Shown in pieces: positions 29,579 through 33,829 of a stretch of 33,844 bases of DNA. Each line of letters begins with the position of its first letter. The stretch's first letter is position 1. This DNA is from Colwellia sp. D2M02 (GTDB lineage Bacteria; Pseudomonadota; Gammaproteobacteria; Enterobacterales; Alteromonadaceae). The notes under the pieces are model-generated. The model was not told where the DNA came from. It worked only from the letters and a program-made list of their open reading frames with translations, and did no database searches. Both the position numbers and the translations under genes were made by a program. The stretch lies in the NCBI RefSeq assembly GCF_018860755.1, contig NZ_JAHKPW010000060.1, positions 29,537-63,380 on the forward strand, read 5' to 3'.

Positions 29579-30175
29579 ATGAAAGTATTACAACAACCGC
29601 CACTAACTATCGTTTTGACAGTGATTTATGCCAGCATCAGTTTTTCTGCTACGGCAAACACTAGCCAAAGCACAAGTTCCGATCATCCTAAAGCGATGAT
29701 GAGTGGTGCTGCTTACAAGTTTACGGTTAATGAAGAGCCTGATGTTGTTATTCCAAAACTATCAACACCTGATATTGTTAATGCCAAAAACTCTGACAAT
29801 AGTCCAGATGATACCTCCGCTACTGAACCTCGTACAGCAAAACCTTTAGCAAGTAACCCTACACTATTTTTGGAACACATCACCAAAAGTGAGAACCAGT
29901 TTATTCCTGTAATACAAGACGCTATTATTTTCGCTAATTTTGGTGATGAACTGCCCGCTATTGTTAACTATTATACTTTTGCAAACCAAGCTCATATTAT
30001 CAAGTTTTATCAAGAGGCTTATGGAGAGTTAGTGAGTCAGGATACTCAGTACGGTCGTTTGACGTTGCACTTTCGTGCTAATGAACAGCAAATACGGGTG
30101 ATTATTTCACCACAAGATAAAAAACAACAAGTTGACGTTATTGTCACTTTATTAGATAAAAACACGCTTCTGTAG
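29579..30175 (+). CDS. Unknown secreted (periplasmic) protein
   Basis: This 198-residue protein has a Sec-type signal peptide (about 1-27, cleavage likely after SATA). A low-complexity Ser/Thr/Asp-rich linker (about 28-95) follows, then a compact C-terminal domain (about 98-198) beginning LFLEHITKSENQFIPVIQDAI and containing FYQEAYGEL. I do not recognise the family. AGGAAG lies 9 nt before the ATG. It is followed after 25 nt by the GNAT gene on the same strand, so it may be the first gene of the operon that ends with the borosin-like pair, though a functional link is only positional. Confidence 0.75.
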   Translation: MKVLQQPPLTIVLTVIYASISFSATANTSQSTSSDHPKAMMSGAAYKFTVNEEPDVVIPKLSTPDIVNAKNSDNSPDDTSATEPRTAKPLASNPTLFLEHITKSENQFIPVIQDAIIFANFGDELPAIVNYYTFANQAHIIKFYQEAYGELVSQDTQYGRLTLHFRANEQQIRVIISPQDKKQQVDVIVTLLDKNTLL

Positions 30176-30200: not shown

Positions 30201-30794
30201 ATGTTATCAATATCCACTGAGCGGCTTACTTTGCGGCCGCTCATCGCTGCTGATCAAGACATGTTTTGTCAGCTATACACTAGTAAGCATACCATGGCTT
30301 ATATGTCAGCTCCCTATAGCGCAGAAAAAGCTAAAAAGACTTTCTATAGCGCTCTACATTTTAATAAAAACCAAAACCGCGTCATTAACACTTGGGCTAT
30401 TACTTTGAAGTGCTTAAACGCTCCTTATACAGCGACAAATATGAGTTTTGGTATTGTCATGGTATACGATGAATGGAAGCAAGAAAGACTCGCTAATATT
30501 GAGGTTGGCGTATTGCTCTTACCTGAAGTAACTAAACAAGGGTTTGCTAAAGAAGCATTAATGGGTTTATTAGGTTATTGCTTTAACAGGCTATCTTTAC
30601 CCCAAGTTAACATTCGCTTTCATCAAGACAATAACTTAATGCAAATTATTGCTAGAAAGTTAGGTTTTACATCACTCGCTCACAAATTGCCTAACAATTT
30701 ATCGCTCAGTAAAAGCAAATCGACACTTAAGAGTAAAAATGCCATGTTAGTGCAGCAATTAACTGCACAACAATGGCAAGCCGGTCATGTTTAA
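30201..30794 (+). CDS. GNAT-family N-acetyltransferase, RimJ/RimL-like
   Basis: This 197-residue protein has the N-terminal ISTERLTLRPLIAADQDMF typical of RimJ/RimL-type acetyltransferases. The central strand and acetyl-CoA loop read EVGVLLLPEVTKQGFAKEAL (101-120), followed by a helix and the usual late ARKLGFTS motif. The acetyl-CoA loop is slightly degenerate: the residue normally Gln or Arg three places before the first Gly is T111. The substrate is unknown; it could be a protein N-terminus, a ribosomal protein or a peptide. It lies between the secreted protein (25 nt) and the borosin-like methyltransferase (38 nt), all on one strand, so a tailoring role on the peptide is possible but unproven. 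Confidence 0.85.
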   Translation: MLSISTERLTLRPLIAADQDMFCQLYTSKHTMAYMSAPYSAEKAKKTFYSALHFNKNQNRVINTWAITLKCLNAPYTATNMSFGIVMVYDEWKQERLANIEVGVLLLPEVTKQGFAKEALMGLLGYCFNRLSLPQVNIRFHQDNNLMQIIARKLGFTSLAHKLPNNLSLSKSKSTLKSKNAMLVQQLTAQQWQAGHV

Positions 30795-30832: not shown

Positions 30833-31639
30833 ATGAAGGGGAGTTTAATTTGCGTAGGTACTGGCATGATGCTTGGTGCTCATATCAGCCCTATTTGTCA
30901 AAGCCATATAGAACATGCCGATGTGGTTTTCTCTTTAATGGCCTCTGCAATTACTGAGCGCTGGTTAGCAGAAAAAAATAATGATGTACGTAGCTTACAA
31001 AGCTTTTATCAAGAAGGTAAAAACCGCAACCACAGTTACAATGAAATGGTTAACGCCATTATTGATGAAGTAAAAGCAGGTAAAAAAGTAGTGGCAGCTT
31101 TTTATGGTCACCCAGGAGTTTTTGCTTGTGTTGCTCACCGTGCAATAAAAATAGCTCATATTGAAGGGTTTAATGCTCACATGGAGCCAGGAATATCTGC
31201 TGAATCATGCTTATATGCAGATTTATCGATAGACCCAGGTACCTATGGCTGCGCTCACTTTGAAGCGAGTCAATTTTTATTTTATCAACGCCAGATAGAT
31301 ACCAGTGCATATTTAGTACTATGGCAAGTAGGTTTTACTGGTGACAGGTCATTAACAAAATTTAATACTGATAAAGCTTATAAACAAGTTTTAGTGGACT
31401 TATTAACGACATTTTATCCTGATGATCATCTCGTAATATTATATCAAGCAAAAGTACTACCAATAGAAACAGTGCGAGCCGATAAAGTGCCTTTACATGA
31501 GCTAGCAAGTCATAAAATTTATCAACATACTACACTGGTCATTCCACCAACAAAGAAAATGCTAGTAAATCAAGTCATACTTGATAAACTCGAAGGCTTA
31601 GGGCGAAAAAGTAACCAGCCCAAACTTAAATTAGTTTAA
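30833..31639 (+). CDS. Tetrapyrrole-methylase-fold SAM enzyme, probable borosin peptide alpha-N-methyltransferase (SonM/OphMA-like)
   Basis: This 268-residue protein has the class III (tetrapyrrole methylase) fold but resembles peptide backbone N-methyltransferases far more than cobalamin or siroheme enzymes. GSL-x-x-VGTG (3-11) opens the SAM site. FYQEGKNRNHSY (58-69) holds Y59, R65 and Y69, which align without gaps to Y66, R72 and Y76 of OphMA, the catalytic set of borosin enzymes. AFYGHPGVF (89-97), PGISAESCLYADLSIDPG (119-136) and YLVLWQVGF also match that family. Unlike fungal OphMA, no core peptide is fused to the C-terminus, so it is a split enzyme like SonM of Shewanella. AAGGA lies 6 nt before the ATG. 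The adjacent small gene is the likely substrate. A different TP-methylase function is possible but less likely. Confidence 0.85.
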   Translation: MKGSLICVGTGMMLGAHISPICQSHIEHADVVFSLMASAITERWLAEKNNDVRSLQSFYQEGKNRNHSYNEMVNAIIDEVKAGKKVVAAFYGHPGVFACVAHRAIKIAHIEGFNAHMEPGISAESCLYADLSIDPGTYGCAHFEASQFLFYQRQIDTSAYLVLWQVGFTGDRSLTKFNTDKAYKQVLVDLLTTFYPDDHLVILYQAKVLPIETVRADKVPLHELASHKIYQHTTLVIPPTKKMLVNQVILDKLEGLGRKSNQPKLKLV

Positions 31640-31667
31640 CGCTTAATTATAAAAACAAGGATATTCT

Positions 31668-31991
31668 ATGAAAAGTAACACTGTTAACAATCTCATTACT
31701 GATGCCGAAAAAAATACGATTAAATTAATTGAACAACTGGCGACACAGTCGACACTTCAAGAGTTACAACCTAAAAGTCATGCGATTAAAAGTACAGACA
31801 TCACATGCGAATTAAAGAAAGCACTACTTGAGCAAGATATTTCGAGTTTAGAAGCTCAACTTAACCTTAGTGGTAACATAAAGTGTGTCGGAATTTTTCC
31901 AGCTGAAGACGAAGAAGAGCAAACAGATGAGCAAGAAGGTGATCAAGAAGATAACAAAGAAGCACAAAGCCTCATAAAATTTGCCATTTAA
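31668..31991 (+). CDS. Probable split borosin precursor peptide (SonA-like) with acidic tail
   Basis: This 107-residue protein starts 28 nt after the methyltransferase with a matching AAGGA ribosome binding site. Residues 5-66 look all-helical. DITCELKKALLEQDISSLEAQL (44-65, quoted in parts) has the AL..xD...L pattern of borosin-binding domains in OphMA and SonA. A short hydrophobic strip follows, CVGIF (73-77) ending in PAED, which is where methylated core residues would lie. Next comes a very acidic stretch (about 80-98) and a hydrophobic C-terminus SLIKFAI. There is no signal peptide. There are two Cys residues (C47 and C73). The 30-residue acidic extension is longer than I recall for SonA. 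The domain match is by eye. Confidence 0.75.
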   Translation: MKSNTVNNLITDAEKNTIKLIEQLATQSTLQELQPKSHAIKSTDITCELKKALLEQDISSLEAQLNLSGNIKCVGIFPAEDEEEQTDEQEGDQEDNKEAQSLIKFAI

Positions 31992-32011: not shown

Positions 32012-32032
32012 GCCGAGTAACTATTACTCGGC
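32012..32032 (+). terminator. 9-bp hairpin between the precursor gene and the GGDEF gene
   Basis: GCCGAGTAA (32012-32020) pairs perfectly with TTACTCGGC (32024-32032) around a 3-nt loop, 20 nt after the precursor stop codon. There is no U-tract, so it may protect the 3' end of the precursor message or set its ratio to the downstream gene rather than terminate fully. Confidence 0.5.
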
Positions 32033-32047
32033 AGTTATAAAATTAAT

Positions 32048-33829
32048 ATGTTGATAAATCTCTCTCATAAATACAATTTTTTACATAAGCTTTATTTAGG
32101 CTTATTTTATGCGCTTTTTATACTGTGTAGTCACGCTAGTTATGCCACTCAAGGTGTTAGTGAAAATAACCTTTTAAATATCGATAGTATGCTAATTGAG
32201 GCTGATAAACTACGTAGCCATGCTCCTGCTTTAGGGCAAGAGATCATTACCAAACTAGAGAATAATATTACTAAGTTAAGCGAGTCTCAACGCCATCATT
32301 TAACTTACCTTAGTGCTTCCAAATCAATTTATCAGGGAAATTACCTTGAAGGCGAAAAAAAATTCTTAGCTTTATTAACCTCGAACACCAGTGAGTTAAT
32401 CAAATTCAGAGCAAACTATAGTTTGATAAATCTATATACGTTACAACAACGTTGGCAAGAAGGTTTACAGCAAGTAGCCAAGGTACTGACAACCAGAAAG
32501 AGTATTGAAGGGGATGAACACTTTAAATTAGCACTTGTGTCAGTAATAGCCTTCTATAACCAAATTGAGCAATACCAGTTAGCTCTTGATTATAGTGAGC
32601 AGCTATTACACAACATCAGTGAAAAAAGAACTCATTGTATAGTTAATCAATTGGTATTATTGGCTAAATTAGAAACTCAAAAACTATCTATTAAAAGCAA
32701 TGAATTAACAAAAGGCATTGAAGTTTGCCAACAAGCCAATGAACCGATTTTTACTGGAATTATTCGAAGTTATCAAGCTCGCTTGCATTTAAATGAGAAA
32801 AACGCAGATGATGCGATTAATGCCTTACTACCACATTTAAATGCTGTTAAGTCTACCCATTATAAAGTTTTGATTAGCTTAACTTATAATTTATTAGCAC
32901 AGGCATATCATTTGAAAAGTGATATAGATAAGACAAAAGAATATGCTCTTTTAGCTGAAGATGTAGGCGGTGGTTTAACAAAAAATAAAGAGATTGCGGC
33001 AACTTACAAACTACTTTTTCAAATTGCGGAGCAAGAAGGTAACTTTGAGCAGGCTTTATATTTTCATAAAAAATATAGCCAAGCGACGCAAAAACACCTC
33101 GATGAAGTGCAGGCAAAACAAATCGCATTCCAATTAGCTAAACACAATGATTACGCGAATAAACAGCGTATAGAGCAACAAAATCAGCAAATTGATTTAC
33201 TTAGTGTTCAACATCTATTAACTAAAAAACAAGCCGAAAACTCATTACTTTTGATTATGCTTTTAATCGTATTTTTAATGGCGCTTGCTTTATGGGCTTA
33301 TAAATCATGGTTAGTTCAGCAACGTTTAAAACAGTTAACTGAGTATGACAGTTTAACCAAGGTACATAGCAGAGGTCACTTTATTCAGCTCGCAAAAAGT
33401 TCCTTAAAGCACTGTCAAAAAACAGAGCAGCCATTAACTTGTGTATTATTTGATTTAGATAATTTCAAACGCATTAATGATAACTACGGTCATGCTATAG
33501 GCGATAAAACCTTAAAAGAAGTCGCGAGAGTCTGTAGAAAAATTGGTCGGCAAAATGATATTTTAGGTCGCTTAGGTGGCGAGGAGTTCGCCTATATATT
33601 ACCAGGGTGTAGCGTTATTATCGCCGAAGATATAGCCCAACGATGTCGATTAAGTATTCAACAAATTGACTATAAGGCTTTAGGTCTTAATGATCCCATA
33701 ACGGCAAGCTTTGGTATAAGTGATGTTGCTATATCTGGCTTTGAGTTAACTGACTTACTCGGTGATGCTGATAGTGCGATGTATGCTTCTAAAGAACACG
33801 GAAGAAATTGCGTTAATACTTTTAGATAG
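32048..33829 (+). CDS. Membrane diguanylate cyclase with periplasmic TPR-like sensor and GGDEF domain
   Basis: This 593-residue protein has a signal peptide or anchor (about 1-33, SYA before the mature part). A helical TPR-like periplasmic region spans about 45-350, then a coiled coil (about 355-397), a transmembrane helix (399-418) and a cytoplasmic GGDEF domain (about 430-593). The active site is GGEEF (510-514), the FDLDNFKRIND metal site is intact, and an RxxD inhibitory site (RQND, 501-504) lies exactly five residues upstream. It should make cyclic di-GMP and be feedback-inhibited. No Shine-Dalgarno precedes the ATG. It lies 56 nt after the borosin precursor gene with a hairpin between, so joint transcription is possible. 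The stop codon is 15 nt from the window end. Confidence 0.92.
   Translation: MLINLSHKYNFLHKLYLGLFYALFILCSHASYATQGVSENNLLNIDSMLIEADKLRSHAPALGQEIITKLENNITKLSESQRHHLTYLSASKSIYQGNYLEGEKKFLALLTSNTSELIKFRANYSLINLYTLQQRWQEGLQQVAKVLTTRKSIEGDEHFKLALVSVIAFYNQIEQYQLALDYSEQLLHNISEKRTHCIVNQLVLLAKLETQKLSIKSNELTKGIEVCQQANEPIFTGIIRSYQARLHLNEKNADDAINALLPHLNAVKSTHYKVLISLTYNLLAQAYHLKSDIDKTKEYALLAEDVGGGLTKNKEIAATYKLLFQIAEQEGNFEQALYFHKKYSQATQKHLDEVQAKQIAFQLAKHNDYANKQRIEQQNQQIDLLSVQHLLTKKQAENSLLLIMLLIVFLMALALWAYKSWLVQQRLKQLTEYDSLTKVHSRGHFIQLAKSSLKHCQKTEQPLTCVLFDLDNFKRINDNYGHAIGDKTLKEVARVCRKIGRQNDILGRLGGEEFAYILPGCSVIIAEDIAQRCRLSIQQIDYKALGLNDPITASFGISDVAISGFELTDLLGDADSAMYASKEHGRNCVNTFR

Follow-up and report, generated by a model that had tools for sequence, protein, structure and literature searches.

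The window analysed here, a stretch of 33,844 nt from Colwellia sp. D2M02, encodes a split borosin pair, and the predicted N-methylated peptide made from it is probably (we would put the probability at about 0.58) the ligand of the adjacent TPR sensor, setting cyclic-di-GMP synthesis. Comparison of sequences establishes the supports for this reading: the enzyme family and its catalytic residues, the precursor, a recurrent gene order, an intact GGDEF motif, co-occurrence, and co-diversification within the genus. The borosin pair itself is of a known kind; the novelty is the precursor-sensor cassette, which extends just outside the coordinates of a preliminary description of this DNA, and it is the adjoining TPR sensor gene that offers a testable purpose for the peptide. 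Confidence in the ligand reading was slightly lowered because the N-terminal segment of the window cyclase is weak and because sensors that are not partners of a precursor also match the TPR-TM profile described below. The features of the locus are as follows.

30201..30794, + strand: GNAT acetyltransferase (Acetyltransf_3), the third recurrent gene of acidic-tail cassettes (Pfam, region survey)
30833..31639, + strand: SonM-type peptide backbone N-methyltransferase, 268 aa (homology to SonM, Pfam, catalytic residues)
31668..31991, + strand: split-borosin precursor, 107 aa, with leader, core, acidic spacer and short hydrophobic C-terminal tail (homology, alignment)
31707..31865, + strand: leader, predicted borosin binding domain, precursor residues 14-66 (alignment with genus relatives, SonA ranking)
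31881..31910, + strand: predicted core KCVGIFPAED, residues 72-81, with predicted N-methyl sites V74 and I76 (SonA-like spacing from the leader)
31905..31988, + strand: precursor residues 80-107, comprising the acidic spacer and the hydrophobic C-terminal tail (alignment with genus relatives)
32012..32032, no strand assigned: 9-bp hairpin between the precursor and cyclase genes (z -4.2 against shuffles)
32048..33829, + strand: TPR diguanylate cyclase, 593 aa, with a TPR array, one transmembrane helix and a GGDEF domain (Pfam, hydropathy, model)
32168..33037, + strand: TPR sensor array, approximately residues 41-330, predicted periplasmic (model mf0d7253305bb, pLDDT 93, pTM 0.82)
33242..33298, + strand: predicted transmembrane helix, cyclase residues 399-417 (hydropathy)
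33311..33817, + strand: GGDEF domain with GGEEF motif and RxxD I-site (Pfam, motif search)

The preliminary description had proposed a split borosin locus of the SonM/SonA type, and an ORF check returned both of its genes in the places and sizes it gave, the enzyme of 268 aa being followed after 28 nt by a separately encoded precursor of 107 aa. The nearest solved protein to the enzyme is SonM (E 1e-82, query residues 3-257), with fungal OphM-type enzymes as the next matches (residues 3-256, E 5e-49 to 5e-45). The alignment with SonM contains one 3-residue gap and, counted by hand, places Y59, R65 and Y69, the residues picked out earlier, opposite SonM Y58, R67 and Y71, which the excerpted text of PMC8429565 names as catalytic; all three are invariant across 17 relatives. 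Pfam recognizes only the TP-methylase fold. A tetrapyrrole (cobalamin or siroheme) methylase was considered and rejected, with cobI_cbiL scoring 21.7 against a cut-off of 163.25 bits and cobM_cbiF scoring 20.5 against a curated equivalog cut-off of 259.65 bits. With SonM nearest and the cobalamin-type models far under their cut-offs, the split-borosin proposal is upheld, and by homology the enzyme and precursor are a type IV split borosin pair, ordinary for its family.

Some variants of the enzyme gene were seen elsewhere. The methyltransferase domain lies inside longer ORFs of 638 and 1174 aa (L199:600-2516 and L234, respectively), which are possible fused borosin architectures, and at L062:8020-8840 (oriented on the enzyme strand) the gene is interrupted, or contains a sequencing error, while the adjoining precursor and sensor genes are open.

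Members of the same precursor family recur in genus relatives as small genes downstream of the enzyme, with an intervening gene in a few genomes. Their alignment displays a leader, a short hydrophobic core, in most cases an acidic spacer, and a short tail; residues 1-13 of the window precursor are an extension absent from most genus relatives, and the majority of the 41 genus precursors fall below 100 aa. Searched alone at E ≤ 0.001 against 5.8 billion proteins, the window precursor retrieved itself only (three candidates scored, shared 5-residue words being required); it had no match in the PDB, no family in Pfam or PADLOC, and only a chance-level match in NCBIfam (E 0.098). A profile of 38 genus precursors, built without members of the family to which the near-SonA locus L103 belongs, ranked SonA chains in all of the top seven places among 177,635 PDB sequences, at weak E values of 0.07-0.1, and the link to SonA was otherwise made only via iterated profiles. 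The precursor may be helical, by a homology to SonA that is suggestive and not significant by profile.

The earlier placement of the core at residues 72-80 fits an ungapped count from the leader Asp (D57 in the window, D46 in SonA), which carries L63 and I65, the methylated residues of SonA according to the excerpt from PMC8429565, onto V74 and I76. The corresponding positions, +17 and +19 from the Asp, carry hydrophobic residues in 92% and 74% of the 38 genus precursors; since +14 and +16 do likewise (89% and 95%), the exact core register is not proved, and N-methylation at V74 and I76 is offered as a prediction. The hairpin downstream of the precursor (32012-32032) scored as terminator-like on the minus strand only.

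There are several unusual precursor genes that the reader may wish to note. A 146-aa protein beside a second methyltransferase (L053:6431-6871) carries five similar copies of a short segment (HKAxxxANDGQEF-like) and looks like a multi-core precursor, on a weak profile match (E 0.0099). At L051:8536-9615, four tandem precursor genes without a sensor of their own follow one methyltransferase, and a fifth precursor with a sensor comes after them. Precursor-like genes with a duplicated KLLLL segment also lie beside a second methyltransferase, with no large neighbor called (L093:7799-8062, L106:9100-9303 and L115:7858-8061).

The cyclase gene begins 56 nt after the precursor. Its N-terminal hydrophobic stretch is visible by eye and falls under the hydropathy cut-off. 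The pattern GG[DE]EF is the active-site motif of active diguanylate cyclases; it is present in the window protein as RQNDILGRLGGEEF, and the RxxD I-site pattern is present too. Folding the entire cyclase from its single sequence gave a poor model (pLDDT 50.5), and the sensor part was modelled from an alignment in its place; in one VIA-align structural comparison of this TPR model, the Rap/NprR pheromone receptors ranked first. Two other roles were looked for and rejected: PADLOC gave only a weak match to a '2TM' effector of anti-phage systems (E 0.0008, cyclase residues 332-411), and plasmid or phage carriage of the locus gave no match. Farther upstream, positions 29579-30175 encode a protein of 198 aa whose start looks, by eye, like a signal peptide; it matched nothing in Pfam or NCBIfam, and the other regions contain no relative of it.

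How regularly such a sensor accompanies the precursor was assessed in 153 regions surrounding enzyme relatives (152 retrieved, plus the window; two contig-edge pieces of genome G429 are left out of the count), which are related by descent, so that the counts are not independent events. These contained 174 called precursors, five regions having none. A GGDEF gene is next on the same strand for 124 of the 174; 123 of these genes follow directly, at a median gap of 6 nt (quartiles -1 and 13), and one lies across a second precursor. Because the window's genome holds 43 GGDEF domains in 4.0 Mb, such adjacency is far from chance, even though the regions are related. Another large gene is next for 37 precursors (28 directly, nine with the enzyme between), and the remaining 13 lack such a neighbor. 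Among the 37 other partners, TPR_12 was detected in 35, a kinase ATPase domain in 20, HisKA in 19, receivers in six and Hpt in three.

Pfam TPR models are less sensitive and detect repeats in only part of the sensors (TPR_12 in 53/90 at E ≤ 0.01); a separate TPR-TM profile was made for that reason. Built from the genus only and applied outside it (E < 1e-5), it matches 85/86 GGDEF partners and 23/37 other partners, as well as 12/20 GGDEF ORFs in those regions that do not adjoin a precursor. Homology between the kinase partner at L058 and the window cyclase spans the full TPR-TM part (29%, E 6e-43) and stops there. In most cases, therefore, the precursor is accompanied by a TPR sensor; it is the sensor that recurs, and its output varies. 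Label-free clustering of the larger ORFs in the 153 regions gave this ranking again, with the enzyme family in 150, the sensor family in 149 (an upper figure, given single linkage), the GNAT in 58 and a pepsin-like protease in 33.

Outside the 153-region count, three loci (L031, L032 and L035) have a precursor and then a TPR-GGDEF gene; L033, where the profile called no precursor, has a TPR-GGDEF gene downstream of the enzyme, and L034 has a precursor followed by a 216-aa ORF near a contig end. Among the seven weaker loci L193-L199, also outside the count, L196 reads precursor-GGDEF-enzyme, and GGDEF was not found in the other six. Outside the order, only 4/11 loci have a GGDEF neighbor, and our claim is therefore limited to this clade rather than extended to all bacterial borosins. 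In nine loci (L098, L108, L116, L118, L119, L125, L130, L151 and L159) the enzyme is of another type and stands between the precursor, which comes first, and a protein of 351-391 aa; the one such protein scanned singly, that of L098, is TPR-only, and L098 and its relatives have a gene of the glycine dehydrogenase family upstream.

Within the genus, the enzyme is present in 24 of 39 genomes (one copy, in G009, being interrupted). The precursor was found in 24/24 genomes with the enzyme and 1/15 without it, and the sensor (E ≤ 1e-60) in 24/24 and 2/15; the profiles were built from these same cassettes, so presence was bound to be found and it is the absence elsewhere that is informative. The exceptions are G001, where a single short contig carries both precursor and sensor, and G024, with a sensor alone.

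One might expect the same picture from an ordinary borosin natural-product cluster in which the cyclase or kinase only regulates the timing of production and the sensor reads some other signal. Regulators are, as a matter of general knowledge, frequent in RiPP clusters. As of 2021, moreover, there was no type IV borosin pathway with a final natural product, according to the excerpt from PMC8429565. This account is, we believe, unlikely, for it is the precursor-sensor pair that behaves as the unit, duplicating around one enzyme and occurring without a nearby enzyme. Twelve regions have two or three precursors followed by GGDEF genes; in 11 of them these form two or three distinct pairs, almost always grouped around a single enzyme, and the other, L111, has two precursors before one cyclase. 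Three GNAT-precursor-GGDEF-GGDEF groups (L189:3345-8298, L190:3177-7952 and L191:6599-11567) lack an enzyme gene in the 14 kb retrieved, which would require the methyltransferase to work in trans; each of the three genomes has a methyltransferase elsewhere.

A second argument against a mere timing device is that, in the genus, the TPR part of the sensor tracks the precursor and not the enzyme. Across pairwise distances for 37 genus cassettes, the precursor core correlates with the TPR part (r 0.605) and scarcely with the GGDEF domain of the same proteins (0.192) or with the enzyme (0.027). Removing GGDEF and enzyme leaves a core-TPR partial correlation of 0.585 (p 0.0005), and removing the leader too leaves 0.385 (p 0.0005). 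The correlation stays even across the TPR region (0.40-0.62, residues 30-390) and drops to 0.13-0.27 in GGDEF, which is not what gradual loss of linkage would give; the GGDEF signal is nevertheless lowered by the greater conservation of that part. Per-column covariation singled out no TPR helix face. Outside the genus, 35 cassettes of the short type gave 0.342 for TPR and 0.21 for GGDEF, and 38 of the acidic type gave 0.317 and 0.37, respectively, the TPR preference being weaker in the former and absent in the latter. That precursor and sensor descended together as a unit has good support from these distances, and specific recognition between them has moderate support.

The leader correlates with the TPR part more strongly than the core does (0.681). 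Such a pattern would suit a whole precursor, methylated or not, that binds the TPR domain as a protein subunit with no small peptide released, as RcbA does on RcbB in Vibrio vulnificus, RcbB being a TPR-GGDEF enzyme that is de-repressed by a partner protein (PMC12282931, in excerpt). We consider this quite improbable: the TPR domain is predicted to be periplasmic, whereas the methyltransferase, and hence the precursor, should be cytoplasmic, and many cassettes include a pepsin-like protease and an acetyltransferase, which suggests processing.

These processing genes are associated with acidic-tail precursors, defined as having five or more D/E in ten tail residues. A GNAT lies near the precursor in 61/72 regions with an acidic-tail precursor versus 0/76 with only other precursors; counted per precursor, the figures are 69/85 and 9/89. 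The pepsin-like A1 aspartic protease occurs in 33/153 regions, always upstream on the enzyme's strand and together with a GNAT and an acidic-tail precursor, and within 1.1 kb of the enzyme in 29/33 (e.g., L036:3772-5097, minus strand); two D[TS]G motifs are present in 32/33 and a D[TS]GA motif in 28/33. Full-length copies exist in 15 genus genomes (one with an internal stop), each at a borosin locus or, in G001, beside the precursor and sensor without the enzyme, and fragments alone exist in five further genomes. No pepsin-like protease was found in the window's genome, and a GNAT is present in the window. We infer that the protease cuts and the GNAT caps the peptide.

Shared ancestry of a fixed gene neighborhood, with no functional linkage, would explain why most genus loci have other flanking genes in common (PrmA family, 20/24 regions), but it is highly improbable given that the window's own flanks (ligA, zipA, cysZ and hyp198) were matched in 0/37 related regions, that the enzyme may stand before or after the precursor-sensor pair, that the arrangement also occurs outside the order, and that enzyme, precursor and sensor coincide in their presence and absence in the genus.

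Returning to the peptide as ligand, the methyltransferase would methylate the precursor core at V74 and I76 in a SonM-like manner, and the peptide would be released, in many relatives probably by the pepsin-like protease, and capped by the GNAT. It would then pass to the periplasm, N-methylation perhaps helping; no peptide exporter was identified. The predicted periplasmic TPR domain would bind the peptide in its groove, and the binding signal would cross the membrane and change the activity of the GGDEF cyclase. In relatives with histidine-kinase sensors, a peptide of this kind would act through phosphorelay signalling.

A wider and more tentative proposal, to which we would give somewhat less than even odds, is that in this clade the split borosins act as peptide pheromones. 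A single methyltransferase would serve several precursor-receptor cassettes, and each N-methylated peptide (the acidic-tail types probably pepsin-cut and acetyl-capped) would have a dedicated RRNPP-like TPR receptor in the periplasm, with cyclic-di-GMP or a histidine kinase as its output. The tie between precursor and TPR sensor turns the question of peptide function into binding and deletion tests that a laboratory strain allows. If true, it would add a ribosomal backbone-methylated peptide signal and a class of transmembrane TPR receptor to bacterial signalling, supply a Gram-negative counterpart of Gram-positive peptide quorum sensing and a function for bacterial borosins, and provide a substrate for a family of bacterial pepsins.

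Among known systems, the window shares with SonM/SonA of Shewanella oneidensis (PMC8429565, in excerpt) the enzyme family, catalytic residues, separate precursor and core spacing. SonA is 71 aa long, compared with the 107 aa of the window precursor with its acidic spacer and hydrophobic tail. At L103, the precursor's match to SonA covers the full 71 residues (E 2e-38), with a GGDEF gene beginning 0 nt downstream; the excerpted PMC8429565 text on SonM/SonA contains no occurrence of GGDEF or diguanylate. A borosin type is drawn with a GGDEF domain in Figure 1 of PMC11395268, going by an abbreviation in its legend, so some borosin-GGDEF link has already been noticed; the passages of that paper that were consulted state no signalling role for it, and in the literature covered, partly in excerpt and short of key bacterial-borosin papers, the link appears only as that abbreviation. 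The pepsin-like proteases share the A1 aspartic protease family with the shewasins, of which Shewasin D, a characterized bacterial pepsin, accumulates mainly in the cytoplasm (PMC4814920, in part).

RcbB shares with the window cyclase the layout in which a TPR domain controls a GGDEF domain; RcbB is predicted to be cytoplasmic with a protein partner, whereas the neighbor of the window cyclase is a RiPP precursor, and cyclases of V. parahaemolyticus with predicted periplasmic TPR domains are mentioned in the same excerpt (PMC12282931). The RRNPP receptors described in the passages of PMC10075063 are intracellular proteins of 250-500 aa from Firmicutes and their mobile elements, with propeptides of 10-100 aa that are exported by Sec, whereas the window sensor has 593 aa, a predicted transmembrane helix and a GGDEF domain, its precursor has 107 aa, and its peptide, unlike theirs, is predicted to be N-methylated. 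The TPR superhelix is nonetheless similar by VIA-align, and in Rap-Phr, NprR-NprX and AimR, as here, a small propeptide gene lies directly beside the gene for a TPR receptor (PMC10075063).
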